From: a virus | Direction: 5' to 3' (one strand) | IMG/VR virus record: IMGVR_UViG_3300006795_000001 | Location: 1 to 23,052 of that record | Length of the DNA: 23,052 bases | In this document: one piece after another, positions 1,679-23,052 of the stretch | Numbering within the stretch: the stretch's first letter is position 1 | Layout of the letters: every line of letters begins with the position of its first letter | Made by a program: the position numbers and the translations under genes | The notes under the pieces: generated by a model | Databases searched by the model: none | What the model was told of the DNA's origin: nothing | The model's input: only the letters and a program-made list of their open reading frames with translations

Positions 1679-2698
1679 ATGAATGTCAAATTAATTACTC
1701 CCCCGACCGTGGAACCAGTGGATTTGGCATCTTTAAAGCTTCATCTTCGTCTTGATTCCGGTTCTTTCGCCGATAACATTGACGAAACAATTTCGCTCGC
1801 GCCGGGCAGTCATGCAATTAATAACGATTATACTCATATTGTTGGCGATTGGATTGAAGTTATCGGGTATTCAGCTCTTGTAGTTGCTCAATATGGAATA
1901 GCCACGACTGGTGGCATAGTTGATATTAAAATACAGGAAACGGATGACAAGACTTCAATTAATGACTGGTCAACTGGTGCATTTACGCAGGTCACAATTG
2001 GAGCGACTTCATCTACTCAGGAGAAAGCATACACTGGGATAAAGAGATATATCCGAACAGTTGCAAAGGTTACGGTTCAGGCAGGCGAATTTTCAACAAC
2101 GGTTATCAGGCTTATCTCAACATCTTATGAGGACGACCTTTTAAATTCGATTATCACGGCCTCGCGCGAATACATAGAGGATATCACAAGCAGGGCCTTA
2201 CTGACTCAGACATGGGAATATTACCCTGTTAATTGGCCGGGAAGAAGTGGTTATCGTGGCACACCATCGCGCGAGCCAAATATGGAATTTATGCAAATGA
2301 ATAACCTTGCTAGTTATTATATTAAACTTCCCTTCGGCAATTTGCAAAGTGTTACGTCTATAAAATGGAAAGACACGTCAGGAGCGGAAACAATCCTGAC
2401 TGAAAATACAGATTACATAGTAGAAACAAATGGAGATCAATGTGGAAAAATAATTCTACCGTGGGGATGTGTATGGTCCACAGGACAACTCTATCCGTCA
2501 AATCCAATAACAATAAGGTTTATTTCGGGATGGACAACAGCCGCTTTAGTTCCTTCCAAAATTAAGGCGGCAATGAAAATGATTGTAGCCGATTTATACG
2601 TAAACAGGGAAAGGAAAGTTTTGAGTAGTTATAATTATCAAGAAAATAAAGCGGTGCAATCATTGCTTGCAAGCGTAAAATTATGGGATGAATTTTAA
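1679..2698 (+). CDS. Head-tail connector (HK97 gp6-like / phiE125 gp8 family) with inserted beta-domain
   Basis: The 339-residue product starts KLITPPTVEPVDLASLKLHL, the usual opening of gp6-like connectors, which form a ring under the portal. The family continues from about residue 150: YEDDLLNSIITASREYIEDI, SRALLTQTWEYY, LPFGNLQSVTSIKWKD, a Y-x-V ... G-x-I strand pair, ITIRFISGW, and a final helix KAAMKMIVADLYVNRE. Ordinary members go from the first helix straight to the second. Here about 115 residues (roughly 33-148) intervene and look like a separate beta-sandwich: VDIKIQETDD, WSTGAFTQVTIGA, AYTGIKRYIRTVAKVTV. That segment resembles small capsid-associated beta proteins. AAAGGATGA precedes the ATG. 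Confidence 0.85.
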   Translation: MNVKLITPPTVEPVDLASLKLHLRLDSGSFADNIDETISLAPGSHAINNDYTHIVGDWIEVIGYSALVVAQYGIATTGGIVDIKIQETDDKTSINDWSTGAFTQVTIGATSSTQEKAYTGIKRYIRTVAKVTVQAGEFSTTVIRLISTSYEDDLLNSIITASREYIEDITSRALLTQTWEYYPVNWPGRSGYRGTPSREPNMEFMQMNNLASYYIKLPFGNLQSVTSIKWKDTSGAETILTENTDYIVETNGDQCGKIILPWGCVWSTGQLYPSNPITIRFISGWTTAALVPSKIKAAMKMIVADLYVNRERKVLSSYNYQENKAVQSLLASVKLWDEF

Positions 2699-2907
2699 TG
2701 AGATGTGGGTACTGCGGAAGTAATCTTCATACGATTACAAATTGCCCTAAGACATTTAGCGGATCAGCAAATAGGAATCGAATGAACTGTGCTTATTGCG
2801 GATCTCGGGACCACAACATTGAGGCATGTCCAAAGACATGGGGTGGTAATGCAGCGCGTGTGTGGCATCCCGAAATAGTGAAAGACTATTTCGTAAAGGA
2901 TCGATGA
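2698..2907 (+). CDS. Double CCHC zinc-knuckle protein (69 aa)
   Basis: The start overlaps the connector stop (TAATG). Two retroviral-type zinc knuckles with exact C-x2-C-x4-H-x4-C spacing are visible: Cys3, Cys6, His11, Cys16 and Cys31, Cys34, His39, Cys44. Each is followed by CPKT and a small Ser/Gly segment, so the protein is a tandem duplication plus the tail NAARVWHPEIVKDYFVKDR. Zinc knuckles of this kind bind single-stranded nucleic acid or proteins. Small proteins of this build occur beside head-tail genes in other phages, but I know of no tested function. A role in DNA packaging or head completion is inference from location. Confidence 0.8.
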   Translation: MRCGYCGSNLHTITNCPKTFSGSANRNRMNCAYCGSRDHNIEACPKTWGGNAARVWHPEIVKDYFVKDR

Positions 2908-3140
2908 TGGGGAAATATATTGATATTCCGATAGAAGCAGCGAAGCGAATCGCCGAGGGCTTTGAAAAAGATCAGGTAATTATCGTTTGCTGGGATGCGA
3001 AGCACGGCAAAACTCATGTGACGACTTATGGAAAAACGATAGAAGATTGCAGTCAGGCGGCAAAGGGTGGAAATCTCGTAAAGAAGGCTCTCGGATGGCC
3101 AGATGAATTGTGTCACACTAAACCGGTAAGGTCAAAGTAA
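2907..3140 (+). CDS. Small conserved-type phage protein, unknown function (77 aa)
   Basis: The frame could begin at 2862, 2904 or 2907. ATG at 2907 is preferred: it overlaps the previous stop (TGATG), has AAAGGA six bases upstream, and begins right before the conserved-looking GKYIDIPIEAAKRIAEGFEK. The protein continues DQVIIVCWDAKHGKTHVTTY, then GKTIEDCSQAAKGGNLVKKA and LGWPDELCHTKP. This pattern (strand, WD-x-x-HG-x-x-HVTTYGKT, helix with GGN, LGWP-x-x-L) is one I associate with uncharacterised small phage proteins. No catalytic role can be assigned. Translational coupling to both neighbours places it in the head-tail joining operon. Confidence 0.7.
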   Translation: MGKYIDIPIEAAKRIAEGFEKDQVIIVCWDAKHGKTHVTTYGKTIEDCSQAAKGGNLVKKALGWPDELCHTKPVRSK

Positions 3141-3460
3141 TGAACATTGGAGAACGAAATAAAAGAATAACGATCCAGTACCAGACTAAAGTTCCTGACG
3201 GGATGGGCGGATCGACTACCTTATGGGTTACTTATAAAGATGTTTGGGCTTCCATTAAACCATTAACATCACAGAGAAAAACAGAGGCTATGCAACAGGG
3301 AATTAATGCAAGTCACGAAATTAATATTTATTATTTATCCGCGTTCAAAGCATCATGGCGTATAAAATTTGGCAACAGATATTTTTCGATAGGTGGAATT
3401 TCAAATCCTTTAGAAGCGAATAAAGAATTGATTATTCTTTGCTTGGAGGCGGCAGGTTGA
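3140..3460 (+). CDS. Head closure / head-tail adaptor protein (SPP1 gp16-like, Phage_H_T_join family)
   Basis: The start overlaps the preceding stop (TAATG). The 106 residues open with the family signature MNIGERNKRITIQYQTKVPD, a GMGG turn, then WVTYKDVWASIKPL. The middle ASHEINIYYLSAF and the end (KFGNRYFSIGGISNPLEANK, ELIILCLEAA) match the all-beta head-closure fold. These proteins bind beneath the connector ring and seal the DNA-filled head before tail attachment. Length is normal for the family. Its position between the connector and the tail terminator is the standard one. Confidence 0.85.
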   Translation: MNIGERNKRITIQYQTKVPDGMGGSTTLWVTYKDVWASIKPLTSQRKTEAMQQGINASHEINIYYLSAFKASWRIKFGNRYFSIGGISNPLEANKELIILCLEAAG

Positions 3461-3867
3461 CAAATTTACTCACAGCAATATTCGGAAAGTTCACCAGTTC
3501 ATCATTTTCCAATGATGTTGGCGGGAGAGTTTTCCTTGACGAAGCGCCAACGGGAGCCGAATTTCCTTATTGTGTTTATTTTGTTGTTGCTGGAACTCCG
3601 GAAAATGCTTTTCAAAAGAAGGGCAAAGAAATATTAATTCAGTTTTCTCTATTTTCATCTTCACAAAGCGCAGTAGAAATAACAGGAATGTATAATGATC
3701 TTATCGCTCTATTTGACGAATGCACATTGACCATAACGAGTAATATTTTCAATAATATGCACTGGTCAAATCTAACGACAATGATCGAGGATATAACAAC
3801 TACGGACGGAACGCAGACAGTGAAACATTACGCAGTGGATTTTGTAATAACGACACAGGAAGCATAA
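3457..3867 (+). CDS. Tail terminator / tail completion protein
   Basis: The best start is TTG at 3457, overlapping the previous TGA (TTGA), with GGAGG seven bases upstream. TTG at 3439 is in frame but has no ribosome site. The 136 residues begin with a helix (MTNLLTAIFGKF), then RVFLDEAPTGAEFPYCVYFV, EILIQFSLFSS, a helix with YNDLIALFDEC, and a final HYAVDFVITTQ strand. This alpha/beta layout, with P-Y-C/V in the first strand and F-D-x-C ending the helix, fits the terminator ring that caps the finished tail tube and joins it to the head. The gene is in the expected position after the closure protein. Confidence 0.7.
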   Translation: MTNLLTAIFGKFTSSSFSNDVGGRVFLDEAPTGAEFPYCVYFVVAGTPENAFQKKGKEILIQFSLFSSSQSAVEITGMYNDLIALFDECTLTITSNIFNNMHWSNLTTMIEDITTTDGTQTVKHYAVDFVITTQEA

Positions 3868-3912
3868 AGATCTATCAAGGTGACGGCTTAGGCCGGGAAA
3901 GGGAAAAGAGAA

Positions 3913-4050
3913 ATGACAGTAGCAGCATTGATTGAGATATTGAAGGTGCATAAACCAGACGCAGAAGTACGTATCTTCAGCACGGATTATAATACTGATC
4001 TTGGTATTGAGGAAGTTGAAGACCTGGAAGATGTGATAATTCTGCATTGA
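3913..4050 (+). CDS. Small acidic protein A (45 aa), paralogue of the gene at 6489
   Basis: ATG follows AAGGGAAAAGAG. The product MTVAALIEILKVHKPDAEVR continues to IEEVEDLEDVIIL. The gene at 6489-6626 encodes a protein of exactly the same length with the same plan: MTV-x-x-L-x-x-x-L, K, P-x-A-x-V, an aromatic and Asp-rich middle, then I-x-x-V-x-I. Similar short proteins with an MTV-x-E-L-I start and PDAEV occur widely in phages without known function. Identity between the pair is partial, so the duplication is old or the two were acquired separately. Together they bracket the glycosyltransferase gene. Confidence 0.65.
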   Translation: MTVAALIEILKVHKPDAEVRIFSTDYNTDLGIEEVEDLEDVIILH

Positions 4051-4407: not shown

Positions 4408-4593
4408 ATGGAAAAACAACTCATAGACATCACAAGACAGGAATGGATTTCTCTTAGATGGGAAGAGGCTCCGCAGGCATTAGGAGACGAAGAGAGGGTT
4501 TTTATTTCAACCGGTAATCGTACCCCAGACGAAGCACGGCAGGCAATGGAAGATTGGGATAGCACAGCAGAAGAAAGGAAAGACATTGAATAA
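4408..4593 (+). CDS. Small acidic protein upstream of the glycosyltransferase (61 aa)
   Basis: ATG is preceded by GAAAGGAACGC. The product starts MEKQLIDITRQEWISLRWEE and ends with an acidic helix (DEARQAMEDWDSTAEERKDI), apart from a short strand RVFISTGNRTP. Tryptophan and acidic residues are prominent, and there is no metal or membrane motif. Its end overlaps the glycosyltransferase start by eight bases, so the two are translationally coupled; it may be a partner or chaperone of that enzyme. No family is recognised. Confidence 0.6.
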   Translation: MEKQLIDITRQEWISLRWEEAPQALGDEERVFISTGNRTPDEARQAMEDWDSTAEERKDIE

Positions 4594-6472
4594 GCATCCT
4601 TACATAATCCTAGCTCCTCCGTACCGGAATAGTTCAGCCGGTGTCAGGGCATTGTATGTGCTCGGGAAATCTCTCGAATCTAGGGGATTTAAAGTTGAAA
4701 TACTTGGCGGATTCTATCAGGGATGGAAAGCGCCTTCTAATGCAATAGTTATTTATCCTGAAACAGTTTCAAGCAATCCGATGAATGGGAACACAGTTGT
4801 ACGTTGGGTTTTGAATTATCCCGGCCTCCTTTCTGGCGACAAGGTTTATGCCAAAAACGAAATTATTTTTACATGGAGCGAAAATTATTATGATGCTCCT
4901 GTTTTAACCGTTCCGATTATTGAGGACTTTTTTAGAGACGAACACTTACCGCGATCAGGCGCTTGTTTTTGGGTAGGAAAAGGAATGGATATTCCGCGTA
5001 TACCCGAAACTGATGGAATATGTGAAATCACTTATGAATGGCCTGAGACACGGGAAGACCTTGCATTACTATTGAATGGGAAAGAAGTTTTTTATACTTA
5101 CGATGACAATACTGCCTTGGTTACAGAGGCGAAAATGTGCGGGTGTCGGGTTGTGATTATTCCGGGGGAAAAAGAAAGTGATTATGATGATCTGATAGCA
5201 GATTGCGAAAATCAACTTGACGAATTTATCAGGGCTACGCAAACCGCGGCAGGAGATAAATTGAAGGTCAAGGAAATCCTATTGACCAAAGGGAAAGTTG
5301 CTCTGGTTAATGTTGAAGATTTTGAGGACTTAAATAAATATAAATGGCACGCACTTCCGGCGAAGCGAACTTTCTATGCAGTTAGAAATGACCTTTCCTC
5401 CGGGAAGAGAAAGTACGTTTATATGCACAGTGCCATTATTAAAACACCGGAAGGAATGTTTGTAGATCATATAGACGGAGACGGTTTAAACAATAGGACG
5501 GAAAACCTTAGACTGGCGACTGCAAATCAGAACGCACAAAATAGAAAAACATACTTTAAAAAAGTATCTTTATATAAAGGCGTTACATGGCACAAAACAA
5601 CGGGGAAATGGCTATCAAGAATTACGGTTAATCGTCAACTGCAAACCATTGGTTTTTTCTGTCATGAAACAGATGCAGCGGTTGCCTATAACAATGAAGC
5701 AAAAAAGATGTTTGGTGAATTTGCCAAGGTTAACGAAATACCAGAAATGAAGATTTCTTTTGGGGTTATGACAAACGATATGCAACGTCTGAGTATGGTT
5801 CTTAAACAATCTCAACTTCCAAAATCTATTCATTGCCATGTACTCCAAAACCCGGAATCAGCCACAAAAGGACTGAATGGACTACTCAATAAATGTGAGG
5901 CGGATGGAGCAGATATTTCGGTATTGACGCACCATGATATGTATTTTCGGACTGGATGGGTCGATCAGGTCAAGAGTCAGATTAAATTGTTACCAGATAG
6001 TTGGGTTGTGGCCGGGGTTATCGGTAAGGACGCCAGCGGCCTCATTTGCGGAAAGTTCCACGATATGAGGATACCTGACCATTTCGATACTTCTGATATT
6101 CACACCTTTCCGCATCCGGCCTGTTGCTTTGACGAAGCGGTGATAATCGTCAATATGAAAAGTGGTTTTAGATTTGACGAAGCACTGACCGGATTTGATC
6201 TATACGGTACATTGTGTGTTTTGCAGACATGGGAACTAGGAGGAGAGGCATTCGTGATTGACGCCTTTTGCGAACACTATTGCATGAGATCATTCAAGTG
6301 GTTTCCTTGTGAGACGTTTAAGGAAAACTACAAAATGCTCCACGACAGATTTAATGAGAAGTGGAAATTAGATTCAACAGCGTTGGGGTTATCATCCGAT
6401 GCTGAAGAAAGACTTGAACAGTTAAGAGAATTTATGACTTCAGCGGGGCCGGAGAGTGAAGCAGCGGCGTAA
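4586..6472 (+). CDS. Two-domain glycosyltransferase interrupted in frame by an HNH-AP2 endonuclease
   Basis: The TTG start overlaps the previous gene and follows AAAGGAAAGA. Residues 1-222 resemble a GT-B type transferase: PYIILAPPYRNSSAGVRALY, WVGKG, REDLALLL, and the nucleotide-sugar side YTYDDNTALVTEAKMCGCRV. Residues 386-600 resemble a GT-A fold of the Glyco_tranf_2_5 type: ISFGVMTNDMQRLSMVL, ISVLTHHDMYF with the metal-binding HHD region, WVVAGVIGKD, CCFDEAVIIVN, GFDLYGTLCVLQ, AFCEHYCMR. Residues 226-385 are a full HNH-AP2 protein (separate entry). Phage transferases in tail operons can glycosylate virion proteins; the target here is unknown. Whether the 628-residue chain is made, and is active with the guest, cannot be told from sequence. 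Confidence 0.8.
   Translation: MNKHPYIILAPPYRNSSAGVRALYVLGKSLESRGFKVEILGGFYQGWKAPSNAIVIYPETVSSNPMNGNTVVRWVLNYPGLLSGDKVYAKNEIIFTWSENYYDAPVLTVPIIEDFFRDEHLPRSGACFWVGKGMDIPRIPETDGICEITYEWPETREDLALLLNGKEVFYTYDDNTALVTEAKMCGCRVVIIPGEKESDYDDLIADCENQLDEFIRATQTAAGDKLKVKEILLTKGKVALVNVEDFEDLNKYKWHALPAKRTFYAVRNDLSSGKRKYVYMHSAIIKTPEGMFVDHIDGDGLNNRTENLRLATANQNAQNRKTYFKKVSLYKGVTWHKTTGKWLSRITVNRQLQTIGFFCHETDAAVAYNNEAKKMFGEFAKVNEIPEMKISFGVMTNDMQRLSMVLKQSQLPKSIHCHVLQNPESATKGLNGLLNKCEADGADISVLTHHDMYFRTGWVDQVKSQIKLLPDSWVVAGVIGKDASGLICGKFHDMRIPDHFDTSDIHTFPHPACCFDEAVIIVNMKSGFRFDEALTGFDLYGTLCVLQTWELGGEAFVIDAFCEHYCMRSFKWFPCETFKENYKMLHDRFNEKWKLDSTALGLSSDAEERLEQLREFMTSAGPESEAAA
5251..5742 (+). mobile_element. HNH homing-type endonuclease with AP2 DNA-binding domain, nested in the glycosyltransferase
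   Basis: Inside the glycosyltransferase frame, AGGAG at 5251-5255 is followed six bases later by TTG (5261), where a typical HNH-AP2 protein begins: KEILLTKGKVALVNVEDFED, YKWHA, FYAVRND, YVYMHSAII. The nuclease core is VDHIDGDGLNNRTENLRLAT followed by N-Q-N-A-Q-N-R. The AP2 domain is LYKGVTWHKTTGKW, IGFFCHETDAAVAY and KMFGEFAKVNE. The frame then continues into the second transferase domain with no stop. The insertion lies between two folded domains, so the host enzyme could tolerate it. The internal ribosome site could also make the nuclease separately, ending fused to the GT-A domain. No intein splice motifs are seen at either edge. Confidence 0.85.
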
Positions 6473-12100: not shown

Positions 12101-13874
12101 TGGCGCGGATGTTTTAGGCGGTCTTCCTGGCCTCAGCCAGATAACAACTTGGGTTTCTGATTTTCTTGGAGATGCAATAAGTTCCATCTTTGGCGGTGCT
12201 CAATCATCCGAGGTTACTCAGTCGGGTATTGCTATTGGCGAGAATGTCGTCGGCAGTATAATTTCCGGTGCGCAAGCGTCCGCACAATCATTTGGACAAG
12301 TTACTACCACAACGGACGGCGGTTGGTTTAACGGAGACGACACTTCAGTATCTAATCAATACGGGACTTTGGATTCAAGCATCTCCGATATGCTGACAAA
12401 GGTATTTAAAGGTATCGGCGGCACCCTTGTCTCTCTATCAACTGAACTTGGAACAAACACGCAAGACGCGCTGAATTACACTTTTGCGGCCATTAATATA
12501 GACCTACAGGGTAAGACGACGGATGAAATTAATACTGCTTTGTCTGATTATATAAACAACATTGCTGACACAGCGGTTTCGACTCTTTTCGGTTCCATTC
12601 TTACTCAATACCAGAGTTTAGGGGAAGGCCTCTATGAAACCGCCGTGCGTTTGGTAAATGACAAACTCACTATTTTAAAAGCGCTAGAAATGACCGGTCA
12701 GTCTTTCCACGGCACGGCAACCGCCGCGATCGCCATGTCAGAAAACTTGATTTCTCTGGCTGGGGATTTGAGCACCTTAACTGACGCAATGGGTGTATAT
12801 TACGACAAATTCACCTCAGATGAAACCAAACAGAGTGATTTGCAAACGAGCCTAACCTCCACACTGGCCAAATACCACCTCTCATTAGGCGCTACACGAG
12901 ATTCTTATACGAGACTAGTGGATTCCCTTGACCTGACGACGAAAAGAGGCCAAGCGGCGTATGTCGCCCTAATGCAACTGTCTGGTTCAGCAGATCAATA
13001 CTATACTTATTTGGAAACTGCACAGGCTGCGGCAACCGACGCACAGGCTGCGGCTGCACAGGCCTCGGCAGATTTAGCAACACAACAGCGGAGTATTGAA
13101 ATCCAAATAATGACAGCGCAGGGCGATGCGGCAGGCGCCCTTGCCGCAACGAGAGCCGATGAACTAGCAGCGATGGATGAGTCTTTAAGGCCCCTACAGG
13201 AACGGCTTTACGCTTTACAGGACGAAGCGACGGCAATTACAGATTTAACAACTGCGGTTGATGGATTAAACACCAGAGCGCAGACAATAGCACAATTCAT
13301 AACCGATATGGGGATGAGTGATCAGGCACCTGTTCAATCAGCAGCGGCATGGGATACAGAATATGCAAAACAAAGAACGCTTGCTATGGCTTCCGGTGCC
13401 ACAGATCAGCAAATTTCCGATTACCTTGCTTTTGCGAAACAGTATCTAAGCTATGAACAGTCTTATGGTACAACCGGAAGTTATCAAGCGATCTACGATG
13501 CTATAATGAAGGATGTGACCAGCCTTGGAACATCAACAAACACAGCCCTTGATATTGCACAACAGCAATTAGACGTATTGATACAAATTAGAGACGGGAA
13601 TGGTGTTCAAGCATCGTACGCGTCGGGGACAGATTATGTTCCGGAAACCGGATTATATAAACTACATCAGGGCGAGATTGTCACCACGAAAACTAATTCC
13701 GTGAAAGCTCTAGGTGCCGCGATCGGTGAATATATCGTTAACAGTAATGGTGGGTCTAACGGCGGGGATATTCATGTTAGTGTGCAGATTGATGGTCGGG
13801 AAATTGGAAACGTAGTTGCTAAGCAAACAAGAACAAATCCGGATTTGCAAAAGTCTATAAGGAATCTAAATTAA
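9162..13874 (+). CDS. Tape measure protein (1570 aa)
   Basis: The largest gene in the window, coupled to the previous stop by TAATG with AAGGTGG upstream. It opens MAGSNLGTVWVELSLDDKIY, the usual T-x-x-V-x-L-x-x-D-D-x-x-Y start of tape measures. Long Ala/Lys/Glu helices fill residues 30-110 and 390-780. Hydrophobic stretches lie near residues 110-127, 311-341 and 810-865, the last rich in Gly, Ala and Met. The C-terminus has ASGTDYVPETGLYKLHQGEI and a closing VSVQIDGREIGNVVAKQTRT. If about 1.5 angstrom of tail is made per residue, as is usual, the tail would be roughly 230 nm. No peptidoglycan hydrolase motif is evident. Confidence 0.92.
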   Translation: MAGSNLGTVWVELSLDDKIYKQKLGETLTSSTATAKGIETAWRALGTKSDATFDQMRKSAENAYTLIATASGKASQETIRAQQAAADKIKSINEQQYGQQATWIEKTKANWLGLTLAVGAAMVAMNKAAEFVELGAKAQQAEDSFKRVAESSGESADKIITSMKRATVGTVDDSDLMQRAVKGMMLGLSGDAMVKIAEMARLGARVAGTSVADAIEGITNSIATGMPRALKQYGLALGPEVKIITAAQTAGVEGINLMTLAQMNFDIQLARHGEIQANAIEQTQIFKAQITELKEQLGGALIALLRQDYGLLQALGSGFLYAAGATNYLVAGLANVAAWTADKLGFDEKAKSMKAYADFATATAKQLIADADAMKNRGVANITGNAESSKTGTTSDAQAKIAQLEKDKAAFLKDVKDRTAAMKNAGKNEAKDAQNNLAGQLSDIKSHYDAAIALDTQWYERQKENGANSVDLDNQYYDKKNADLYSSYDQQWKLIEQSSVRESEKYKNLTALNKTYEDALGKNRIELTKSLIADEKTHIDVMAAAYKTIGDYSDTAQKYEIAKINETYKIKHASVKAGSQEEIDLEKAKQTEIFKLQNSSYQTLIDMELSYLETVKGPYSETYKAVFEESLKNQAAALELAMKNAGLEFDKEAWLTQKQNEELAKRLEARATYYMAIGGMEDKANSAALAAIEIRKQLNIKAYGDEVAADKTAAQSTIKSQQDIIDAMNTRFDTEHKYQKDSITNAVSVCDNAMSLMDKESKGYQIMQDAKKVLQIAELAMEIEKNIKILAFGVAQSTSAVAAAQVQNAANASTAVTGAVASVASAGIGIPPYSFANVAAMIAVMAGVLGMVGIAFGGASASSGATATASLPTSTVLGAENGTGSQSVENGYKLLQDTYDLENVKLTRIYDELKDLNSNITGLVRNYVSTGGVSSSDFTVSGDSTSKYADIYNSDWMSLAGVGSSFTNTVMGGYSGWATTGADVLGGLPGLSQITTWVSDFLGDAISSIFGGAQSSEVTQSGIAIGENVVGSIISGAQASAQSFGQVTTTTDGGWFNGDDTSVSNQYGTLDSSISDMLTKVFKGIGGTLVSLSTELGTNTQDALNYTFAAINIDLQGKTTDEINTALSDYINNIADTAVSTLFGSILTQYQSLGEGLYETAVRLVNDKLTILKALEMTGQSFHGTATAAIAMSENLISLAGDLSTLTDAMGVYYDKFTSDETKQSDLQTSLTSTLAKYHLSLGATRDSYTRLVDSLDLTTKRGQAAYVALMQLSGSADQYYTYLETAQAAATDAQAAAAQASADLATQQRSIEIQIMTAQGDAAGALAATRADELAAMDESLRPLQERLYALQDEATAITDLTTAVDGLNTRAQTIAQFITDMGMSDQAPVQSAAAWDTEYAKQRTLAMASGATDQQISDYLAFAKQYLSYEQSYGTTGSYQAIYDAIMKDVTSLGTSTNTALDIAQQQLDVLIQIRDGNGVQASYASGTDYVPETGLYKLHQGEIVTTKTNSVKALGAAIGEYIVNSNGGSNGGDIHVSVQIDGREIGNVVAKQTRTNPDLQKSIRNLN

Positions 13875-14339
13875 ATGGCTGCCTTCGAAATTTACGATCA
13901 TATTTCTGCCGCGACTGCTGATTACGATTATACCTTATCAATAAAGGCGCAGGGTATTGTTACGGAAGATGGATATAAAAATCAGGTCATCCACCTTGCC
14001 GATGATAATTCTGAGGAACGGATTACCTTGGCGGTTAATTCAATATTTTCTGTTTCGTGGGCGTGGGGACTTTTGTCAGAGGAGGATTCGGGAACTATCT
14101 TTGATCTCTACCACGACCCGGTAAAGGCCAACGGCATGGGGCGCAGTTTTAAGTGGCTTGGACATGACGGCCATACCTATGTCGTACGTTTCGATTGTAA
14201 TCTCTCTCGTTCCGGTAATTCAGTGAAACGCTGGGGACTTCCGGGAATTAAATTGAAAATATTGGGGAGAATTGCTGATGTTCTGGAATGGGAATCCGGC
14301 ACTTCGTGGGAATCCGGCACTTCGTGGGGTGCGGTATAA
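13875..14339 (+). CDS. Minor / distal tail protein (154 aa)
   Basis: The gene begins directly after the tape measure stop, with AAGGAATC in the last codons. The 154 residues are beta-rich: MAAFEIYDHISAATADYDYT, an ITLAVNSIFSVSWAWGLLSE core, a YHDPVKANGMGRSFKWLGHD loop, HTYVVRFDCNLSR and a LPGIKLKILGRI strand before the end. The location between tape measure and hub, plus size, fits a distal tail type protein that forms a ring between tube and tip, but the sequence is not diagnostic. The C-terminal tail is a tandem duplication (WESGTSWESGTSWGAV). Confidence 0.6.
   Translation: MAAFEIYDHISAATADYDYTLSIKAQGIVTEDGYKNQVIHLADDNSEERITLAVNSIFSVSWAWGLLSEEDSGTIFDLYHDPVKANGMGRSFKWLGHDGHTYVVRFDCNLSRSGNSVKRWGLPGIKLKILGRIADVLEWESGTSWESGTSWGAV
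14289..14324 (+). repeat. Perfect 18-base tandem duplication at the 3' end of the distal tail gene
   Basis: TGGGAATCCGGCACTTCG occurs twice back to back (14289-14306 and 14307-14324), encoding WESGTS twice, followed by TGGGG. The unit is in frame, so it lengthens the C-terminal tail without disturbing the downstream overlap with the hub gene. Confidence 0.95.
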
Positions 14340-17300
14340 TGCTTAACCTTACTACAACTCAGGCCGCAATAGTTGCCCTTGATAACAAGACGGCTAAATG
14401 GGCTTTTTATATTTACGACAAAAACGGCGTGGAGTATATTTATACGTCAGGATCACTTGACTCGGTAACTTCATCTATCATCCTTAGTAATTTTTCCGGC
14501 ATTAACCTTCAGCGGAACTATGCCGAGAATACAGTTATTTCACCGTCAGAAGTTACCTTTGATATTTCCAATTCTGGGAATGTTTTGAACTTTTTGGATT
14601 TCAAGGGTGGCAATGTTCTGATTGAATTATGGCTTTCCGACGGGACGCAGGATATTAAAGTCGCTGGCTGGCGATTCAGGATTAAAGTTGCACAACCCGG
14701 ATACCAGAATCTTAAAATCACGGCGCAAGATTTTCTTCAAGATTATTTAACAGGTTACTATCCGAACACCCGTCTACCAGAAGATATTTTCCCTTCTGAC
14801 CGTACTTATTCCAGCGATGGGCTTTGTGTACCTGTACCTTTCGGGCAGGCTTACGTTCCGCTTCGAGATGTTTTTATCACTTCCGCCGGGTATATAATGC
14901 TTGGCGATCCGGCCAAAACTTATACTATCTCCGCAATCCGTTCGCCTCGGTCATGGGGTATGAAATCTGAATATTTCAGCGGGGCTTATACTTTTACTCA
15001 ATCCACAAAAGCGGATGCAGACGGCGTAAACTGGCGAGTATTTCAAGCGATTATTGCCGACATTAATAGTGACGGTGTGGCCGACTCTCCGGGAAGCTGG
15101 CTTATTCCCGGCGGATCAAGTCTTGACACTCCTGTTCAATTCACCAGATCAGACACGGTGGGTTTAACTAATTTTGCCGACCTGATTGCCTTTGTCTTGA
15201 AGGATTTTGGCATACCAGCGGCCTTTATTGATGAAGCGGTAACCTTTGCAGCAGCCAAAACAATATTTACGGGCTGGGGATTAACCTGCAATGGAGCTTT
15301 CTGGTATAAGCAAGATCGTCAAACAGTTTTGGCAAACCTCTTGAATCAATGCCATGCTTGTCTGCGAGTTGGTGAAAAAATTGAACTCCATGTAATTAGC
15401 AAAACCAGTAAGAAAACAATTACAGGGGCGGAAGTTTTGCGAACATCAGAACAGGGTGAAGGCTCTTTCTCTTATCAGGATATTGTCAACACAGATTTAT
15501 CGGATAGTGGTTATGTCGCATGGCAGACAGTTGATGAAGCGCAGGATGAATTTATAAAAACATTGGTAGCTGTAGATGCTGTAGCTAATGTAGTTTCTGC
15601 CGATACTCTGGAATGTGCATTTGTTCAGGATTCAGAGAATATAAAACGGATTGGAATTTTATATTATCAGAGAAAATATTTAAAAGAAGCCGAAGCCGGG
15701 TTCTCAGGAAAAGGAACCTGTTTGGCTTTACAGCCGGACGATAGTATCACGATTAGCGCGGATAATTACGGCGGCGTTTATGATGTTCTTATTGATTCGG
15801 TTCAGATCAATAAAGACCTTTCAATTCAATTTCAATGTTCAAAATACAGTTTACCTTTTCAAGACTGGGCGGATTTATCCGTTGTGCCGTTAGTTGTACC
15901 AACTGATTCCACCGATACTTCATGGACTCCCGTTGTTTCCGGGCCCGATGATGGGGCTAATACGAATGTTTTACCGGGAAGAATTAGAATCGGGGAAACG
16001 AATAATTATATTGTTTTAGACCCGATTGATCCGTTGAGAATTTCCCTTTATTACGGCGGCGTGGAAAAAATACGCCAAGGTAATCTCAATGGATTCCTGG
16101 GTTATACGCTGAATCTTTACGGCATTGGGATCGGTGATACTGATAGTTATTTAAAATATGATTCAGTTAATGGATTGAGGATAAAGGGCGCAATTACTTT
16201 AACTTCCGGCGATGTGCCTTGGGGTTCTGTATCCGGGGCAACAAAGCCAGCCGATAACGCCACGGTGGGGGCAACTTGGGGCTCAAATCTTGGATCGATT
16301 CCTGCCATACTTGGAGCTCCTTCAGGTGACGGTCTTTATTTATCCTCCACTTATATGGGATTTTACCAAAGTTCTGCTTGGAAAACTTATATTGATAATG
16401 CTGGAAATTTTTCTTTAGGTGATATCCACGGCGGCAATGTTGGCTTGGATTGGAATCAAAGCGCGGGGACGTTGACTATTTACGGTAATATTATATTACA
16501 GGCTGGGTGTTCTATTTTATGGACCGCCGTTTCGGGTAGCGGCAAACCTGCAAATTATGCTGATGTGACACTTGCTGCAATTAATGGAGGCCTTTCCGTT
16601 ACTGGCGGCGGTATAACCCTTAGTGCTGGCGGAGCAATTAAAGGTGGACAGACATCTTACGCAACAGGCACGGGGTTCTTTCTGGGGTATGAAAGTAGTG
16701 TTTATAAATTTTCAGTAGGCGACGGCACTAATTTCTTAAAATGGGATGGAAGTGTTTTTAGCGTTAGTTTGTTGGGATCATTCAAAACAGCAACCACCGG
16801 AAAAAGAATTGAGTTAAGCGTTGCCAATAACGAACTGTATTTTTATGGTGATCGTGGCGATGGAACGATTGAACAATTAGTAAACATAGGATTATTGAGT
16901 AATGGCATAGATTTGTATGTTGGGTATTTTGGAGGTGAGGACTCTCGTCACGTCGGCGTTGCCGGGGTGAGTTTGGGTAATATCGGTGTTGAAGGGATAA
17001 GCACTTCCGGCATTGGCGTTTACGGGGTAAGTGGTTCGTGGTACGGAGTTTACGGACAAAGTACGACTGGTTATGCCATTTGTGGCGTTGGAGATTCTTA
17101 CTTTACAGCGAATGTTTCCGCTCTTTCTTTCACTGACCGTACGCCACATTATGAAGGTGATGCTCTCACAGAAATAATAAAGATTACAGGTAAAGACGGG
17201 CAAATAGATCATTCAACTTTGCCTGCCTTTGCACAGAAGAAAACAACGGTACAAAAGAAATACACCGACGAAAACGGCAAGGAAAAGCTCACAGACGAAC

Positions 17301-17398
17301 CGGCAGACGGTAGAGATATTGGAGCCATGGTCTCTATTTTAACAGTTGGAATGCAACAGCTTATAAAAAAGGTGGAAACCTTAGAAAATAAAAAATAA
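14339..17398 (+). CDS. Tail tip hub / central fibre protein (1019 aa)
   Basis: The start is ATG at 14339, overlapping the previous stop (TAATG); the open frame extends back to 14288 but those codons only re-read the tandem repeat of the distal tail gene. Residues 1 to about 510 look like a tail hub: strands such as WAFYIYDKNGVEYIYTSGSL, NLKITAQDFLQDYL, and later KRIGILYYQRKYLKEAEAGF and PFQDWADLS. Residues 520-870 are low-complexity, Gly/Ser/Thr-rich fibre sequence. Residues about 873-918 carry Gly-Val-x-Gly repeats. The C-terminus (DRTPHYEGDALTEI, DGQIDHSTLPAF, RDIGAMVSILTVGMQQLIKK) resembles the trimer-forming end of many phage fibre proteins. It probably connects tube tip to receptor binding. 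Confidence 0.75.
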   Translation: MLNLTTTQAAIVALDNKTAKWAFYIYDKNGVEYIYTSGSLDSVTSSIILSNFSGINLQRNYAENTVISPSEVTFDISNSGNVLNFLDFKGGNVLIELWLSDGTQDIKVAGWRFRIKVAQPGYQNLKITAQDFLQDYLTGYYPNTRLPEDIFPSDRTYSSDGLCVPVPFGQAYVPLRDVFITSAGYIMLGDPAKTYTISAIRSPRSWGMKSEYFSGAYTFTQSTKADADGVNWRVFQAIIADINSDGVADSPGSWLIPGGSSLDTPVQFTRSDTVGLTNFADLIAFVLKDFGIPAAFIDEAVTFAAAKTIFTGWGLTCNGAFWYKQDRQTVLANLLNQCHACLRVGEKIELHVISKTSKKTITGAEVLRTSEQGEGSFSYQDIVNTDLSDSGYVAWQTVDEAQDEFIKTLVAVDAVANVVSADTLECAFVQDSENIKRIGILYYQRKYLKEAEAGFSGKGTCLALQPDDSITISADNYGGVYDVLIDSVQINKDLSIQFQCSKYSLPFQDWADLSVVPLVVPTDSTDTSWTPVVSGPDDGANTNVLPGRIRIGETNNYIVLDPIDPLRISLYYGGVEKIRQGNLNGFLGYTLNLYGIGIGDTDSYLKYDSVNGLRIKGAITLTSGDVPWGSVSGATKPADNATVGATWGSNLGSIPAILGAPSGDGLYLSSTYMGFYQSSAWKTYIDNAGNFSLGDIHGGNVGLDWNQSAGTLTIYGNIILQAGCSILWTAVSGSGKPANYADVTLAAINGGLSVTGGGITLSAGGAIKGGQTSYATGTGFFLGYESSVYKFSVGDGTNFLKWDGSVFSVSLLGSFKTATTGKRIELSVANNELYFYGDRGDGTIEQLVNIGLLSNGIDLYVGYFGGEDSRHVGVAGVSLGNIGVEGISTSGIGVYGVSGSWYGVYGQSTTGYAICGVGDSYFTANVSALSFTDRTPHYEGDALTEIIKITGKDGQIDHSTLPAFAQKKTTVQKKYTDENGKEKLTDEPADGRDIGAMVSILTVGMQQLIKKVETLENKK
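16948..17095 (+). repeat. Gly-Val-x-Gly repeats in the hub/fibre C-terminal region
   Basis: The protein reads HVGVAGVS, NIGVEGIS, GIGVYGVS, YGVYGQS and YAICGVG at spacings of about eight to nine residues. The pattern suggests a short beta-helix or beta-prism stack as found in fibre shafts. It is degenerate at the DNA level, so it is not a recent expansion. Confidence 0.7.
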
Positions 17399-17410: not shown

Positions 17411-17566
17411 ATGAAAACATTTATTATCACTGAACAGCAGGCGCAGACTATCGCAAACTACCTCATTAAAAAACCATTTGAGGAAGTTGTGGGATTGATC
17501 CAAATATTGCAGACCTTACAGGTATACGAACCGGATGTAAAATCGGAGCTAAAGAAGGAGGGTTAA
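17411..17566 (+). CDS. Small phage protein (51 aa), unknown function
   Basis: ATG follows AGAAAGGAAATTT. The product MKTFIITEQQAQTIANYLIK continues KPFEEVVGLIQILQTLQVYE and a charged end. It has an N-terminal strand and then two helices, the second with the L-x-x-x-L-Q-x-L spacing of a small helical bundle. Proteins of this size with an MKTF-x-I start and a K-P-x-x-E-V motif accompany fibre genes in other phages, so a fibre chaperone or assembly role is plausible but untested. The ribosome site of the next gene lies in its last codons, with one base between the two genes. Confidence 0.65.
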   Translation: MKTFIITEQQAQTIANYLIKKPFEEVVGLIQILQTLQVYEPDVKSELKKEG

Positions 17567-17567
17567 A

Positions 17568-19448
17568 ATGAAAAAACTATTCGCGTTAATTATGATTTTA
17601 ATGATGTTGAGTGCCTTTACTGATATTTCAATGTCTCGAACCGTTTACATCAAAGATACACGTACTGGTGGAGGCGCAACCTCCCTTGACGGGATTGACG
17701 GAGCGTTACTTGCGGACAAAGATGCTGCAACAGTTTATTTATCAGGGATAGAATATATCTACGTCCTCAATGCAACTTCTGGGGCGACTGACAACGGTAC
17801 AAGTATAATTGCGCCGGATACGAACGCAGGAACGAAACGGTGGATTTTGCAATCCGCTGGCGGTGGCGGCGCAACCATTGACGACACCAAGGGAAATGGA
17901 GATACAGCCTACGTCTGGTCTGCCGACAAGGTATTCGACCAACTGGCTTTGAAATTATCCCTCGCTGGTGGGACTCTGACAGGCAATCTTCTTTTCTCAA
18001 CCGATAACACGTTAGATATTGGTGCTTCCGGCGCGACAAGGCCGAGAACTATTTATGCTGGAACAAGTATTATTACTCCGGCCCTTACTATTACCGGTGC
18101 CTCCGGTTTAACCCTATCTAAGCAATCAGGCGTTGCGGGTACAGGTCTCATGTTTGATGATTATTCAACTGAGGCCTTTGGTGATGGCTGGATGGGTTCT
18201 CACCAGACGGGTGCTTTGGGCGCAAACAGGTATTATCAATTTCCGACTGCGGCTAATACAGCTGGACAAATAATGGTTTTTGGGGCTCCTGCGGGCGGGG
18301 TATCTATCGCAACGTGGGCAAATCCTTCCTCTGGTGGTGGCGGTGTGACAGGTTCAACTACTCCAACTTCCGGTGATGCTGCTGAATGGAATGCCAGTTT
18401 AAACCTTGCAGCAAATCAATTTATCGCCGGTGTAAATAAGGCAGCGGCAAGTGGTGGCACGGTCACCATGACTATTGCCAGCCCCTATACTCAAATCAGA
18501 ACTGGTTCCTCAAACGAGACTGATGTTCTTCCGGTTGCCTCAACATTACCTAATGGATGGGGCCAGATGTATATCAATAGTTCGACGGGAATAATCACAG
18601 TCCAGACCTCTGGGTCGAACGTAATTTTAGCGGTACCAGCCGGCGGCTCACTATGGGTTTCGGTTCAGGATAGCACGGCAGGAACAGGCTTAGCTAGTTG
18701 GACGTATGCTTATAACTCAATTTTTGCAGGAAGTGATGGCCAGTACCGGATTGTCATTACAAATAATTCCGCAATATCTCCCACGGCCTCAGCGGATGAA
18801 CTTTATCCAGAAGCGCACGTGTGGAAAGTAAATCAGAACGGAACGGAATCAAGCGTTGCGATTGGCCCGACAGCAGGGCAGATATCTTTTACCGGCCCGA
18901 CACAAGCGAGAATTGTAACGCTCCCTGATGCTGCCGTAACAATTCCAGCAAATCCAATGGGTGGAACACTTGGGGCAACTACTAATATTATTCCAAAGGC
19001 AAATGGAACGGGAACAGCTACACTACAGGCATCGGGTATAACTGAAGATGGAACGAATGTCGGCTTAGGTGCGTTAAATCTTGTCACAACCGGAACTATT
19101 CAAGGCGGAATTAAAATAAGTTCTGATGCTGATGGAATGTCTGAATCGGAAATGACCGCAGTTGGTTTGTACGGTTCTTTATTCATGGCTACGGGCGCAG
19201 GAACTTGGACTCTACCTACCGCAGTAGCGGGAATGTCGGCTTGTTTAATGGATAGCGGTACAGCGCATGACCTTATCTTAGATGTTCAGGCGGGTGATGA
19301 CGTTCAGCTTTCAGGAACGGAACAGGCTAATAGAGTGGGTATTACAAACGCCTCTGGTTCTTCCACAGGGGACTTTGTATGCGTGGTTGCTATTAGTGCA
19401 GGGCATTGGGTGACATTAGGTAAAAGCGGAACATGGGCTAGTCAATAA
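17568..19448 (+). CDS. Tail fibre-like protein with N-terminal signal peptide (626 aa)
   Basis: A strong AAGGAGGG site precedes the ATG. The first 24 residues form a Sec-type signal (MKKLFALIMILMMLSAFTDI, then SMS before RTVYI): a basic start, a 14-residue hydrophobic core and a small-residue cleavage region. The next part matches an attachment-type module of phage fibres: LDGIDGALLADKDAATVYLS, then IAPDTNAGTKRWILQS. Around residues 129-168, LAGGTLTGNLLFSTDNTLDI and GASGATRPRTIYAG are classic fibre shaft motifs. The rest is Thr/Gly/Ala-rich beta sequence. A fibre protein with an export signal is unexpected, since virions are assembled in the cytoplasm. The start is firm: no later ATG has a comparable ribosome site. 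Confidence 0.8.
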   Translation: MKKLFALIMILMMLSAFTDISMSRTVYIKDTRTGGGATSLDGIDGALLADKDAATVYLSGIEYIYVLNATSGATDNGTSIIAPDTNAGTKRWILQSAGGGGATIDDTKGNGDTAYVWSADKVFDQLALKLSLAGGTLTGNLLFSTDNTLDIGASGATRPRTIYAGTSIITPALTITGASGLTLSKQSGVAGTGLMFDDYSTEAFGDGWMGSHQTGALGANRYYQFPTAANTAGQIMVFGAPAGGVSIATWANPSSGGGGVTGSTTPTSGDAAEWNASLNLAANQFIAGVNKAAASGGTVTMTIASPYTQIRTGSSNETDVLPVASTLPNGWGQMYINSSTGIITVQTSGSNVILAVPAGGSLWVSVQDSTAGTGLASWTYAYNSIFAGSDGQYRIVITNNSAISPTASADELYPEAHVWKVNQNGTESSVAIGPTAGQISFTGPTQARIVTLPDAAVTIPANPMGGTLGATTNIIPKANGTGTATLQASGITEDGTNVGLGALNLVTTGTIQGGIKISSDADGMSESEMTAVGLYGSLFMATGAGTWTLPTAVAGMSACLMDSGTAHDLILDVQAGDDVQLSGTEQANRVGITNASGSSTGDFVCVVAISAGHWVTLGKSGTWASQ

Positions 19449-19457
19449 GGAGACTTT

Positions 19458-20294
19458 ATGAAACGAATTTTATTAATATTAGCGTTCCTTTTTCTTTGTA
19501 GTTTCTCTGTTGATGCAAGAATGAGCGTTGCCGTGGCGGCTGGAAGTGCTGGTACTTCCTGCACCGCTCAGACAATCACATGGAATACTCAACCAGCGGC
19601 AATGACCGTTGGTGACGCCGACCAGACACTTAATCAGGCGACAGCTTCCGGTGGCGGGGCCGTTACATATACATCTGCAAACACAGGAATATGTACAGTG
19701 GTTAGTGGCCCAAAACTTCACGCAGTCGGGACTGGGAATTGTGTTATTCACGCCAGCCAAGCGGGGAATGGGACGTACTGCGCGGCCTCAAGTGTGAACA
19801 GTAGTGATGTGGTGGTGAGTGCTCCAACGCCCACTTTCCAATTCGGGATTAATACTACAAGTGGGTATAGTAATGTCACTGGAGCCTTAAGTGGTGTTGT
19901 TAATGTTATCGGCCCTTATACGGCAGGTAGTTCAGCCACGATACCTTTCATTAAAACTTATTCATCCGGTAATGGTAATGTTAAAGTGGCTCTATATGCA
20001 GATACAAGTAATACACCAGTGAATAGTGCGTTATTGGCTGTTCAAAATACATCTACAGCCGTAGTTGCTGGATATAATGAAATTTATTTTACAGCGCCGT
20101 ATAATGTTTCAGCAGGAACAAAGTACTGGATTGGTTTAATATGTGACACAACTAATATTATCTACGGCGTAGCCACTTCAGGTACTGATTATTATATAGT
20201 ATTGGGTTACTATACTGGATATAGTTTTCCAAGTACGTGGACAGTAACCGCTAATACACCAGAAACTTTAGTCATGGGGGCTTGGGGATATTAA
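19458..20294 (+). CDS. Exported Ig-like plus beta-sandwich protein (278 aa)
   Basis: AAGGAGACTTT precedes the ATG. Residues 1 to about 21 are a Sec signal (MKRILLILAFLFLCSFSVDA, likely cut after VDA). Residues 36-120 resemble a bacterial Ig-like module: AQTITWNTQPAAMTVGDADQ, TYTSANTGICTVVSG, LHAVGTGNCVIHASQAGNGT, with the usual Y-T-S-x-N-x-x-x-C-T-V and G-x-x-x-A-x-Q-A-G-N motifs. Residues 125-278 are a second beta-domain with VKVALYADTSNTPVNSALLA and FTAPYNVSAGTKYWIGLICD, a layout seen in secreted carbohydrate-binding-like sandwiches. It may be an adhesin module or a coating protein. Nine bases separate it from the fibre gene, consistent with one operon. Confidence 0.7.
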   Translation: MKRILLILAFLFLCSFSVDARMSVAVAAGSAGTSCTAQTITWNTQPAAMTVGDADQTLNQATASGGGAVTYTSANTGICTVVSGPKLHAVGTGNCVIHASQAGNGTYCAASSVNSSDVVVSAPTPTFQFGINTTSGYSNVTGALSGVVNVIGPYTAGSSATIPFIKTYSSGNGNVKVALYADTSNTPVNSALLAVQNTSTAVVAGYNEIYFTAPYNVSAGTKYWIGLICDTTNIIYGVATSGTDYYIVLGYYTGYSFPSTWTVTANTPETLVMGAWGY

Positions 20295-21365
20295 ATGAAA
20301 AAACTAATAGTAATCTTTATTATTCTTTTATACTGCGTGCCAGTTTTCGCTTATGACCAATATTATATAGGTGCCATTGGTCAATCAAACGCCCACAAAG
20401 GCTGGTACACGGCCTCCGATACTGGAACAGATAGTGGAACGCCTGACGCTCATTGCTATGTGTCAACCAATGGAACATCTTGGAGTGCACCGGCCTATTC
20501 AGCCTCAATAGCATTCTGTAACACGATAGCGGCAGCAAAACCAAATATAGATATACGCATGATATTGGGCGGAATGGATTCGTCTTCTCTAACTTCTACC
20601 TGTCAAATTCTTGCCGGATATTGGTTGTACCACGGTGGAGACGCTACGTACTATTGGACACCATTTGCCAACGCGGTAACGGCGGCTGGTGGAACTCTTG
20701 ACGGTATAGTATTTATTCAAGGTGAAACGGAAGGGATAAATAATTGCGGGGTTGCTGGATATCAGACAGACCTTCAAAGTTTCTTTACCCAAATTAGAAC
20801 AGCTTACGGAACTCCAAAAATAGTAGTTGCAGGATTAAATTCTTATGCCGGTTCAAAATACACGGAAGTCAGGGCAGCACAATCCGCAGCGTGTACGGCT
20901 GACGGTTCAGCCCTCTATGTAAATATGACTTCTTATGGAAGTGGGGTACATTACACGGCTACAGAGAATATCACGGTTGGAACAACACTGGCAGCAGATT
21001 TGATTGCAGACACCACTCCACCGACAGTCTCAATCACTCAATCAAGTCCGCAGGCGATCAGTGCAGACACGATTACACTAACCGGTACAAGTTCTGATGC
21101 TGTTGGCGTATCGGGAAATAAAATAAGAGTTGACTCATTGCCGGATGCTACACACGGGACGGCTTGCACCGGTACGACTTCATGGTCATGCACTATCACT
21201 GGATTCAGTTCAGGCGCAAATACTCTCTATGTTTCCGGTTACGATGCCGCTGGGAATTATACGCAGACAGGCAATAGCATCACGGTGAATTATACACCGA
21301 CCAGCTCAACTACCCTATCCCCTCAGTACGGAATAAAATTAATAGGAGGAGCAGTTTATGAATAG
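20295..21365 (+). CDS. Exported SGNH / sialate O-acetylesterase-like protein with Ig domain (356 aa)
   Basis: The ATG follows the previous stop directly. A Sec signal (MKKLIVIFIILLYCVPVFA, V-F-A cleavage motif) leads into an SGNH/SASA fold: GAIGQSNAH gives the nucleophile Ser31 in the G-Q-S-N-A block, ILGGMDSS follows, GIVFIQGETEG holds the Q-G-E block (Glu144), and SGVHYT the catalytic-type His219. Enzymes of this family remove acetyl or similar esters from polysaccharides. The Asp normally three residues before the His is Ser216 here, so activity may be altered or use a dyad. Residues 240-340 are an Ig-like domain (TPPTVSITQSSPQ, WSCTITGFSSGANTLYVSGY). It may deacylate host surface glycans. 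Confidence 0.75.
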   Translation: MKKLIVIFIILLYCVPVFAYDQYYIGAIGQSNAHKGWYTASDTGTDSGTPDAHCYVSTNGTSWSAPAYSASIAFCNTIAAAKPNIDIRMILGGMDSSSLTSTCQILAGYWLYHGGDATYYWTPFANAVTAAGGTLDGIVFIQGETEGINNCGVAGYQTDLQSFFTQIRTAYGTPKIVVAGLNSYAGSKYTEVRAAQSAACTADGSALYVNMTSYGSGVHYTATENITVGTTLAADLIADTTPPTVSITQSSPQAISADTITLTGTSSDAVGVSGNKIRVDSLPDATHGTACTGTTSWSCTITGFSSGANTLYVSGYDAAGNYTQTGNSITVNYTPTSSTTLSPQYGIKLIGGAVYE

Positions 21366-21915
21366 GCGATTACTTTTAGCAATACTTTTTCTCTTTATCT
21401 CCACAACCTGTTTTGCAGCGGGGCCGGAAATCTTTATGACGAGTGGGGCGAGTGCGGCGGCGTGTTCTCCTACAACTATCATTACTAAAAATGATCCTCC
21501 ATCGTCTTCCATTTCTATGACGACATATTATCTTTCTCAACAAATAACCGTGAGTGCAGGTACAGTTATAACATCATGGGAAATAGCAGTGGCGGGACTT
21601 GCAACAACAACAATGAGTTGTCATTTCGAAACTGATTCCGGGAGTGGCCCAACAGGAACAACGGTTAGCGGTTCCACTGTCGACCTTACTAAAGTTTTTT
21701 CAGCTACTATGACCTATGAAACATTTACCCCTGCTTCTCCGCTCACAATGTTGGCAGGAACATATAATGTTGTGTGTCACAATCCAGGCGACTTGCAGTG
21801 GGGTTATAAATCAGGAGGTTCTTTCTATTATGATGCTGATGGTGCGGGGGCATACACGCACAATGAAGCTAATGGTCTCAGTATAAAAGTTAATGGATGT
21901 GGAAGCGGGTCATAA
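21358..21915 (+). CDS. Exported beta-sandwich protein (185 aa)
   Basis: The start overlaps the esterase stop by eight bases, with AGGAGG eight bases upstream. The N-terminus MNRRLLLAILFLFISTTCFA is a Sec signal, probably cut after CFA. The Cys at 18 is not in a lipoprotein box. The mature part is beta-rich: TTYYLSQQITVSAGTVITSW, MSCHFETDSGSGPTGTTVSG, YETFTPASPLTMLAGTYNVV and QWGYKSGGSFYYDADGAGAY. The order (strand, G-P-T-G-T turn, F-T-x-x-x-P-L-T-x-L-A-G-T-Y strand) parallels the second domain of the 19458 gene product and suggests a shared beta-sandwich, perhaps glycan-binding. It is encoded between two probable polysaccharide-active proteins. Confidence 0.65.
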   Translation: MNRRLLLAILFLFISTTCFAAGPEIFMTSGASAAACSPTTIITKNDPPSSSISMTTYYLSQQITVSAGTVITSWEIAVAGLATTTMSCHFETDSGSGPTGTTVSGSTVDLTKVFSATMTYETFTPASPLTMLAGTYNVVCHNPGDLQWGYKSGGSFYYDADGAGAYTHNEANGLSIKVNGCGSGS

Positions 21916-21935
21916 AATTAGCCAGAGATTATAAC

Positions 21936-23052
21936 ATGAAAAAAATCTTATTGATATTACTTTGCTTATTGCTCCTAATTCCAAGTTATTCATGGGCGGC
22001 AAACTGTGGAGGTTCACCGACTATTTACTATGTTGATTTCGGAGCCGCCAATGACACAGCCGATGGGTTGGCTACGTCAACTCCTTGGAAGCACGTTCCC
22101 GGTGATGTGGGAGGAAGTTGGCATGATTCTAATTGTACCCTTCAGGCAGGAGATAAGGTAATCTTCAAGGGTGCGGTTGCCTATAACAGTTCCTTTGAAG
22201 TAACTTCCGGCTCTGGAGATGCAACTGCCAATAGAGTTATCTATGATGGCGACTCTGGTACTTATGCAACACGGTGGGCGTCTGGTACAGACAAGGCCAT
22301 TATTCATGGGCAAGATACTAGGGAAGTTACTATTACTGGGACTAGTAAAAATTATGCCACGATCAATAGTTTTGAATTAAAGAATACGATTGGAGTTCCT
22401 TACAATGGGACTGGAGCTGTAGATTTAAATTCATGTAGTTATATTACCGTCACGAATTGCAACATCCACACGATTGGTCATTTTGGAATAAGCGGCACAA
22501 GTTGGGCTGCCCCAGGGCCGCAAGGTCTGGGTATCAGGTTATCCGCTAGCACCTATTGTAAGATTCTTAATAATACATTAACGAATGTTTATAGCATCAG
22601 TATTATATCCATTGGTGGGTCATATAATGAGATAGGCGGTAATACCGTAGCCAGTTGTTCGGTTTGGGGAATAGACATTGCCAGTGAATCAAATTCTTCA
22701 ATCCACAATAATATCATTCCTAATATGGGTGCTTGTTATATACCCTGTGTGGATGAGACTTGTTCGGCGGCTATCCATATTGATGGAATGATCGTGATGA
22801 ACACCACTGCCCACTCAACAATGTCAAATCTGTCAATATATGGCAATCTTTTTTACTATGACCAAACTGCTCCAAGTTGCCAACTAACTGCTGCCTTGTT
22901 TATAACTGAAGGTGGAGGTGAAACCGATTATAATTATGATGGCTTAAAAATTTACAATAATGTCTTTTCAAATGTTTGGTCATGTGATGGGAATATTTAT
23001 CTTCAGTATTCTAATTTTACAAATACTTATATTTATAACAATTCTTTTAATG
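21936..23052 (+). CDS. Exported right-handed beta-helix protein (pectate-lyase-like), 3' end outside window
   Basis: An open frame runs from ATG 21936 to the window edge (372 codons seen, no stop). It begins with a Sec signal (MKKILLILLCLLLLIPSYSW, then AA before NCGG). The mature start TIYYVDFGAANDTADGLATS, then TPWKHVPGDV, is the Y-V-D ... N-D-T-A-D-G ... T-P-W-K signature that opens many secreted beta-helix enzymes and phage tailspikes. Later come helix-coil repeats (ITVTNCNIHTIGHFGISGTS, NNTLTNVY, IHNNIIPN, LKIYNNVFSN) with Asn ladders. The fold is well supported; lyase, hydrolase or pure binding cannot be decided. The catalytic face probably continues beyond the window. Confidence 0.75.
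   Translation, partial: MKKILLILLCLLLLIPSYSWAANCGGSPTIYYVDFGAANDTADGLATSTPWKHVPGDVGGSWHDSNCTLQAGDKVIFKGAVAYNSSFEVTSGSGDATANRVIYDGDSGTYATRWASGTDKAIIHGQDTREVTITGTSKNYATINSFELKNTIGVPYNGTGAVDLNSCSYITVTNCNIHTIGHFGISGTSWAAPGPQGLGIRLSASTYCKILNNTLTNVYSISIISIGGSYNEIGGNTVASCSVWGIDIASESNSSIHNNIIPNMGACYIPCVDETCSAAIHIDGMIVMNTTAHSTMSNLSIYGNLFYYDQTAPSCQLTAALFITEGGGETDYNYDGLKIYNNVFSNVWSCDGNIYLQYSNFTNTYIYNNSFN

Follow-up and report, generated by a model that had tools for sequence, protein, structure and literature searches.

Assembly in the cytoplasm is textbook knowledge for tailed phages, and tails of the P22 type are added after packaging and can also be added in vitro. The tailspike gp49 of Acinetobacter phage Fri1 (PDB 6c72) and its relatives resemble the fibre of the locus analysed here in fold and in their position at the start of the fibre or spike; Fri1 gp49 and the known members are taken as cytoplasmic, whereas the domain described here has a signal peptide (SP) in front of it. 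The portal-tail adaptor of SU10/GP4 (PF24175), which in SU10 links the portal to the nozzle and bears the long fibres (PMC9509320), resembles by Pfam and fold the adaptor of the short-tailed phages described below. Solved homologues of the SU10/GP4 type and the cultured relatives Itty13, CF418P1, and DS1 have no SP at the start, while the uncultured adaptors have one upstream. Lambda Lom is likewise an exported product encoded among tail genes (PMC12309495), but it is a single outer-membrane protein and no fibre, whereas here the SPs are on fibres and elsewhere on adaptor and nozzle. Phage carbohydrate esterase tailspikes such as those of Moo19/B2 (PMC11654681) likewise place an esterase at the receptor-facing end of the tail; the esterase found here differs from them in having an SP and in belonging to the SASA family. 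No description of SPs on phage tail or structural proteins was found in the open-access literature, which is weak evidence of absence, and in one study the absence of an SP was taken as support for phage origin (PMC6199706).

The window, which is the whole stretch of DNA analysed, is an IMG/VR-type virus record of 23,052 bases with a siphovirus late operon in the order connector proteins, tape measure, distal tail protein, hub, a 51-aa ORF, and five SP-bearing genes. Its connector genes match PHROG head-tail adaptor, Hc1, and neck families. Between them lies a 69-aa protein (2698-2907) with two zinc-knuckle-like motifs of CxxCxxxxHxxxxC type, whose Pfam zinc-knuckle matches are weak and below cut-off. 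A 628-aa ORF (4586-6472) has an in-frame HNH_3 endonuclease domain in mid-protein (PF13392, aa ~288-318), and its C-terminal part resembles an uninterrupted protein of contig L061 (53%). Scans of genome contigs for hosts and prophages gave no relative, and cultured phages gave none for its hub, fibre, esterase, or N-domain, or for the nozzle protein of the short-tailed phages. The features at the distal end of the operon are as follows.

14336 to 17398, + strand: tail hub/central fibre protein without SP, with homologues in L010, L017, L007, and L002.
17411 to 17566, + strand: 51-aa protein without SP between hub and fibre, with a small ORF at the equivalent site in L007, L010, and L017 and a BLAST match in L017.
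17568 to 17636, + strand: SP of the fibre protein, predicted cleavage SMS/R.
17568 to 19448, + strand: fibre/tailspike-type protein of 626 aa.
17637 to 17866, + strand: N-terminal domain of tailspike type, immediately behind the SP.
19458 to 20294, + strand: SP-bearing Cys-rich protein of 278 aa, a probable beta-sandwich adhesin.
20295 to 21365, + strand: SP-bearing carbohydrate esterase of SASA/SGNH type with a C-terminal Ig-like module.
21358 to 21915, + strand: SP-bearing protein of 185 aa.
21936 to 23052, + strand: SP-bearing right-handed beta-helix protein, gene cut by the contig end.

The preliminary description, made from the DNA letters, had read an SGNH esterase-like protein, a beta-helix, and Ig/beta-sandwich modules in this cluster. 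The first is confirmed at 20295 by a SASA match (PF03629, E 5e-10, 39.8 bits vs a cut-off of 24.8), and a relative with an SP and a GDSL domain is found in another contig (L004, 6783-8228). The second holds at 21936 (PF13229, E 5e-08, above cut-off). Ig or lectin modules at 19458 receive no Pfam support above cut-off, the lectin-like matches being below it. The genes at 17568 and 21358 have no match in Pfam or PHROG; the first is assigned as a tail fibre or tailspike by the homology of its N-domain to phage fibres and spikes, in about 100 phage ORFs and in fold matches.

All five genes start at the codons given in the preliminary description, and four of them are complete, while the fifth exits the contig end, so the SP-bearing set may be longer. 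With the predicted cleavage marked by a slash, the N-termini are MKKLFALIMILMMLSAFTDISMS/R at 17568, MKRILLILAFLFLCSFSVDA/R at 19458 (VDA/R), MKKLIVIFIILLYCVPVFA/Y at 20295, MNRRLLLAILFLFISTTCFA/A at 21358 (CFA/A), and MKKILLILLCLLLLIPSYSWA/A at 21936 (SWA/A). Each has the charged n-region and hydrophobic h-region predicted for a protein secreted by Sec and signal peptidase I: the n-region charge is +2, the best 10-residue Kyte-Doolittle mean ranges from 3.07 (fibre) to 3.81, and none of 20,000 composition shuffles within each protein did as well as its SP. These calls come from the authors' own rule, not from SignalP. The Sec-type N-termini claimed for the five genes are thus borne out by the rule and the shuffles, and so is the lack of SPs upstream, since none of the remaining called genes in the window passes the rule. 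The claim of A-type cleavage sites stands for 19458, 20295, 21358, and 21936, which have canonical sites of AxA type; 17568 has a weaker S-x-S site.

A full or near-full Shine-Dalgarno sequence precedes 17568, 19458, and 21358, which makes these starts credible. Among the operon relatives, which were found via the distal tail protein, the strict SP rule passes 2 of 370 genes in the part that ends with the distal-tail gene vs 14 of 162 genes downstream, so five consecutive SPs are far beyond chance. Start codons were picked by a simple rule that performs poorly in high-GC contigs, and most contigs are fragments. Chance origin and misplaced start codons are rejected on the shuffles, the Shine-Dalgarno sequences of three of the genes, and the skew between the two parts of the operon. 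ATGs inside the coding sequence, one at 17631 and another past the SP of the second gene, raised the possibility of a dual start that gives forms of one gene with and without SP. The ATG at 17631 has no Shine-Dalgarno sequence and other SP-bearing copies have no comparable ATG; it yields MSRTVYIK, which resembles the SP-less start MSTRTVYIK of contigs L087 and L094, and more likely marks an old start. In the window, the four accessory proteins are rich in Cys, with 27 in 1103 residues vs 24 in 4070 for the upstream proteins. Cys enrichment, which an oxidising compartment would lead one to expect, is not supported as independent proof of export: it is absent between matched N-domain proteins with and without SP (P=0.51), which counts against export, and is not supported over all genes (11.9 vs 10.3 per 1000).

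N-domain family of the fibre: The AlphaFold model of the N-domain (pLDDT 95.9) has its best PDB match in the Fri1 tailspike gp49 (6c72), with a probability of 1.00 and a TMq of 0.64, but the Foldseek E value is 0.012 and the identity 28%, so the relation is weak; other viral tailspikes are matched in fold as well. One search of viral contigs gave 31 loci with relatives of this domain, and another confirmed 122, of which 80 were retained. When related phage genomes were searched, as the preliminary description had proposed, the SP pattern was found again in other uncultured phages. The 99 distinct N-domain ORFs analysed comprise 83 without and 16 with SP. The domain begins 1-10 residues after the Met in 78 of the 83 SP-less copies and at residue 22-28 in all 16 copies with SP; its position is therefore bimodal, which makes the SP an addition in front of a fibre that does not otherwise change. 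L007, L010, and L017 have tail operons homologous to that of the window; in them hub, small ORF, and N-domain follow each other in the same order, and the N-domain is SP-less. The ORF at 17411-17566 is retained between hub and fibre also where the fibres of the relatives have no SP. Judging from the sequences, SP status switches often within the family: the N-domain tree has 13 changes vs a shuffled mean of 15, with few branches supported and 2 changes forced.

SP-bearing adaptors and nozzles of short-tailed phages: An SP is found on the adaptor and on a nozzle-like protein of about 1000 aa in the contigs L157 (identical to L060), L158, L164, L180 (identical to L091), L178, and L173, and where a fibre gene with the N-domain is present in them, the fibre has an SP too. 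The SP-bearing adaptors match PF24175 (SU10_adaptor) above cut-off, with the match beginning directly after the SP; the Pfam run took in L060, L173, and the SP-less L100, and L158 and L164 were assigned by alignment. By this profile and by the adaptor fold, SU10-type adaptors with SP are present in L157 (at 9309), L158, L164, and L173. Foldseek matches the L157 model to the portal-tail adaptors of cyanophage A4, KHP30, VP1, GP4, SU10, N4, and crAss001, and the adaptor profiles match solved portal-adaptor chains from chain residue 2-4. The junctions are SAFA/GSQQTSSTTA in L157, LCFA/GSQQTSSTLA in L158, and SVFA/GSQQTSSTPA in L180, while the SP-less adaptor of L174 starts MASQQTSSTTA. The SP thus joins the adaptor exactly at the start of the SP-less form, and close relatives have none of these SPs. 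Among homologues the SP sequences diverge and retain the K/R, the hydrophobic core, and the AxA.

In these phages the SP block is flanked by the capsid genes on one side and by the genes that follow the fibres on the other. The major capsid proteins and the genes downstream of the fibres, which by position are probably internal or ejection proteins, have no SP. In L164 the SP-bearing adaptor is preceded by a 282-aa adaptor-like gene without SP, so the head could close in the cytoplasm and the remainder be added later; L173 deviates from this and has an SP on both adaptor-like genes. L171 has SP-bearing fibres, an SP-less adaptor, and a nozzle SP without canonical start codon, and further SP-like N-termini stand upstream of its capsid gene, so the rule of an SP block is imperfect.

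The fibre has an SP in 5 of 5 contigs whose nozzle has one and in 0 of 10 whose nozzle has none, and the adaptor in 6 of 7 vs 0 of 15, with the states assigned by reading gene lists. The SP state of the nozzle is shared by the fibre in 15 of 15 contigs (Fisher P 3e-4) and by the adaptor in 21 of 22 (P 9e-5), counts that ignore relatedness; corrected for phylogeny, there are 2-3 independent pairs and 0 discordant, too few for significance. Forms of the nozzle-like protein that bear an SP and forms that do not are about 50% identical. In the nozzle tree the SP-less L174 and L171, which has SP-bearing fibres and a probable nozzle SP, are sisters with 100/100 support, and the SP state changes at least 3 times on supported branches.

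Read directly from the genes are the SP-like N-termini, the precise graft, the repeated change of state, the SPs on adaptor, nozzle, and fibre together in several phages, and the SP-less capsid. The explanation preferred here, to which we give a little under an even chance, is that the distal tail set is made as Sec preproteins, exported, and joined to the particle outside the cytoplasm. The five proteins of the window would make up the distal end of the tail, which faces the receptor (fibre, accessory adhesins, deacetylase, and beta-helix). Signal peptidase I would cut the SP off and leave an N-domain with nearly the N-terminus of the SP-less relatives, so the mature part could dock as usual. 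DNA-filled heads, in the window phage with tube and hub, would be built in the cytoplasm, and the tail parts added last would fold beyond it and be joined to the particle in the periplasm or once lysis breaches the inner membrane. Export itself, cleavage, presence in the virion, and assembly outside the cytoplasm are thus what we infer. Progeny virions of SU10 were seen assembled within the cell (PMC9509320), which counts against this model.

Of the two readings offered in the preliminary description, a role for hydrophobic N-termini in tail assembly is favoured by the grafts on adaptor and nozzle and by the SP-less occurrence of the fibre domain in syntenic relatives, but a generic hydrophobic handle is less apt than a cleavable signal. 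The signals look cleavable, so the likely novelty is the export of tail parts. The other reading, envelope remodelling or receptor masking, explains SP-bearing adaptors poorly, though receptor masking keeps some probability for the cluster of the window itself. In that unlikely case the exported proteins would not belong to the virion and would act at the surface of the infected or lysogenic cell, where they mask or trim receptors or block superinfection as a multi-gene analogue of Lom. The enzymes of the window are in keeping with surface masking, since esterase and beta-helix domains suit glycan editing, and Lom, an exported membrane protein, has its gene between those of tail spike and fibre (PMC12309495); the related phage L040 has integrase-like and repressor-like ORFs, as judged by eye. 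Surface masking misfits the adaptors and nozzles with SP, which have no plausible job as a surface mask, and the SP-bearing fibre, which is homologous to the SP-less one and takes its place after the hub in a window with no separate SP-less fibre. A consensus scan of the window gave 20 promoter-like sites vs 20.6 expected and 6 terminator-like sites vs 8.0, with no surplus that would mark the cluster as a unit expressed apart from the late operon in the manner of Lom.

Distinctly unlikely is an assembly platform on the cytoplasmic or periplasmic face of the inner membrane, to which uncleaved hydrophobic N-termini would anchor the tail proteins; the strong h-regions and the N-terminal graft onto anchor domains suit it, but the AxA-type motif at nearly every junction and the normal mature N-terminus favour cleavage. 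Very improbable is that the SPs are passengers of gene shuffling between fibres and secreted bacterial adhesins, tolerated with no role in the virion, since adaptors have no bacterial secreted source, the diverged SPs keep their features, and SPs occur as sets, even though the state changes frequently on the N-domain tree and secreted proteins often contain Ig-like, FG-GAP, and beta-helix modules.

The export of tail parts as cleavable preproteins can tentatively be extended, at somewhat less than an even chance, to several tailed-phage lineages that would have moved tail completion out of the cytoplasm via Sec, perhaps escaping cytoplasmic defences that sense tails. The exported set might then, just as tentatively, be adaptor, nozzle, and fibres in the short-tailed phages and only the fibre tip set in long-tailed ones; a benefit from avoiding cytoplasmic sensors of tail proteins is speculation. 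If true, part of the virion would be built or added outside the cytoplasm, which bears on head-tail joining, on the oxidative folding of fibres and their contact with glycans, and on evasion of cytoplasmic tail-sensing immunity. Annotation would be affected as well, because an SP is often read as a sign of a non-virion gene.

In L173 a single protein (2173-4029) combines an SP, six FG-GAP repeats, and an SU10_adaptor domain. After the SP-bearing fibre in the SP block of L164, the gene at 13563-14372 starts LTRRKFIELTAIWGALLPASAQA, a Tat-like signal, and has no Pfam match. Tailspike/pectate-lyase-like proteins with SPs of FAQ type are found in other phages (L082, 10571-12046, and L081, 2372), which suggests that SP-bearing spikes exist in further phage groups.
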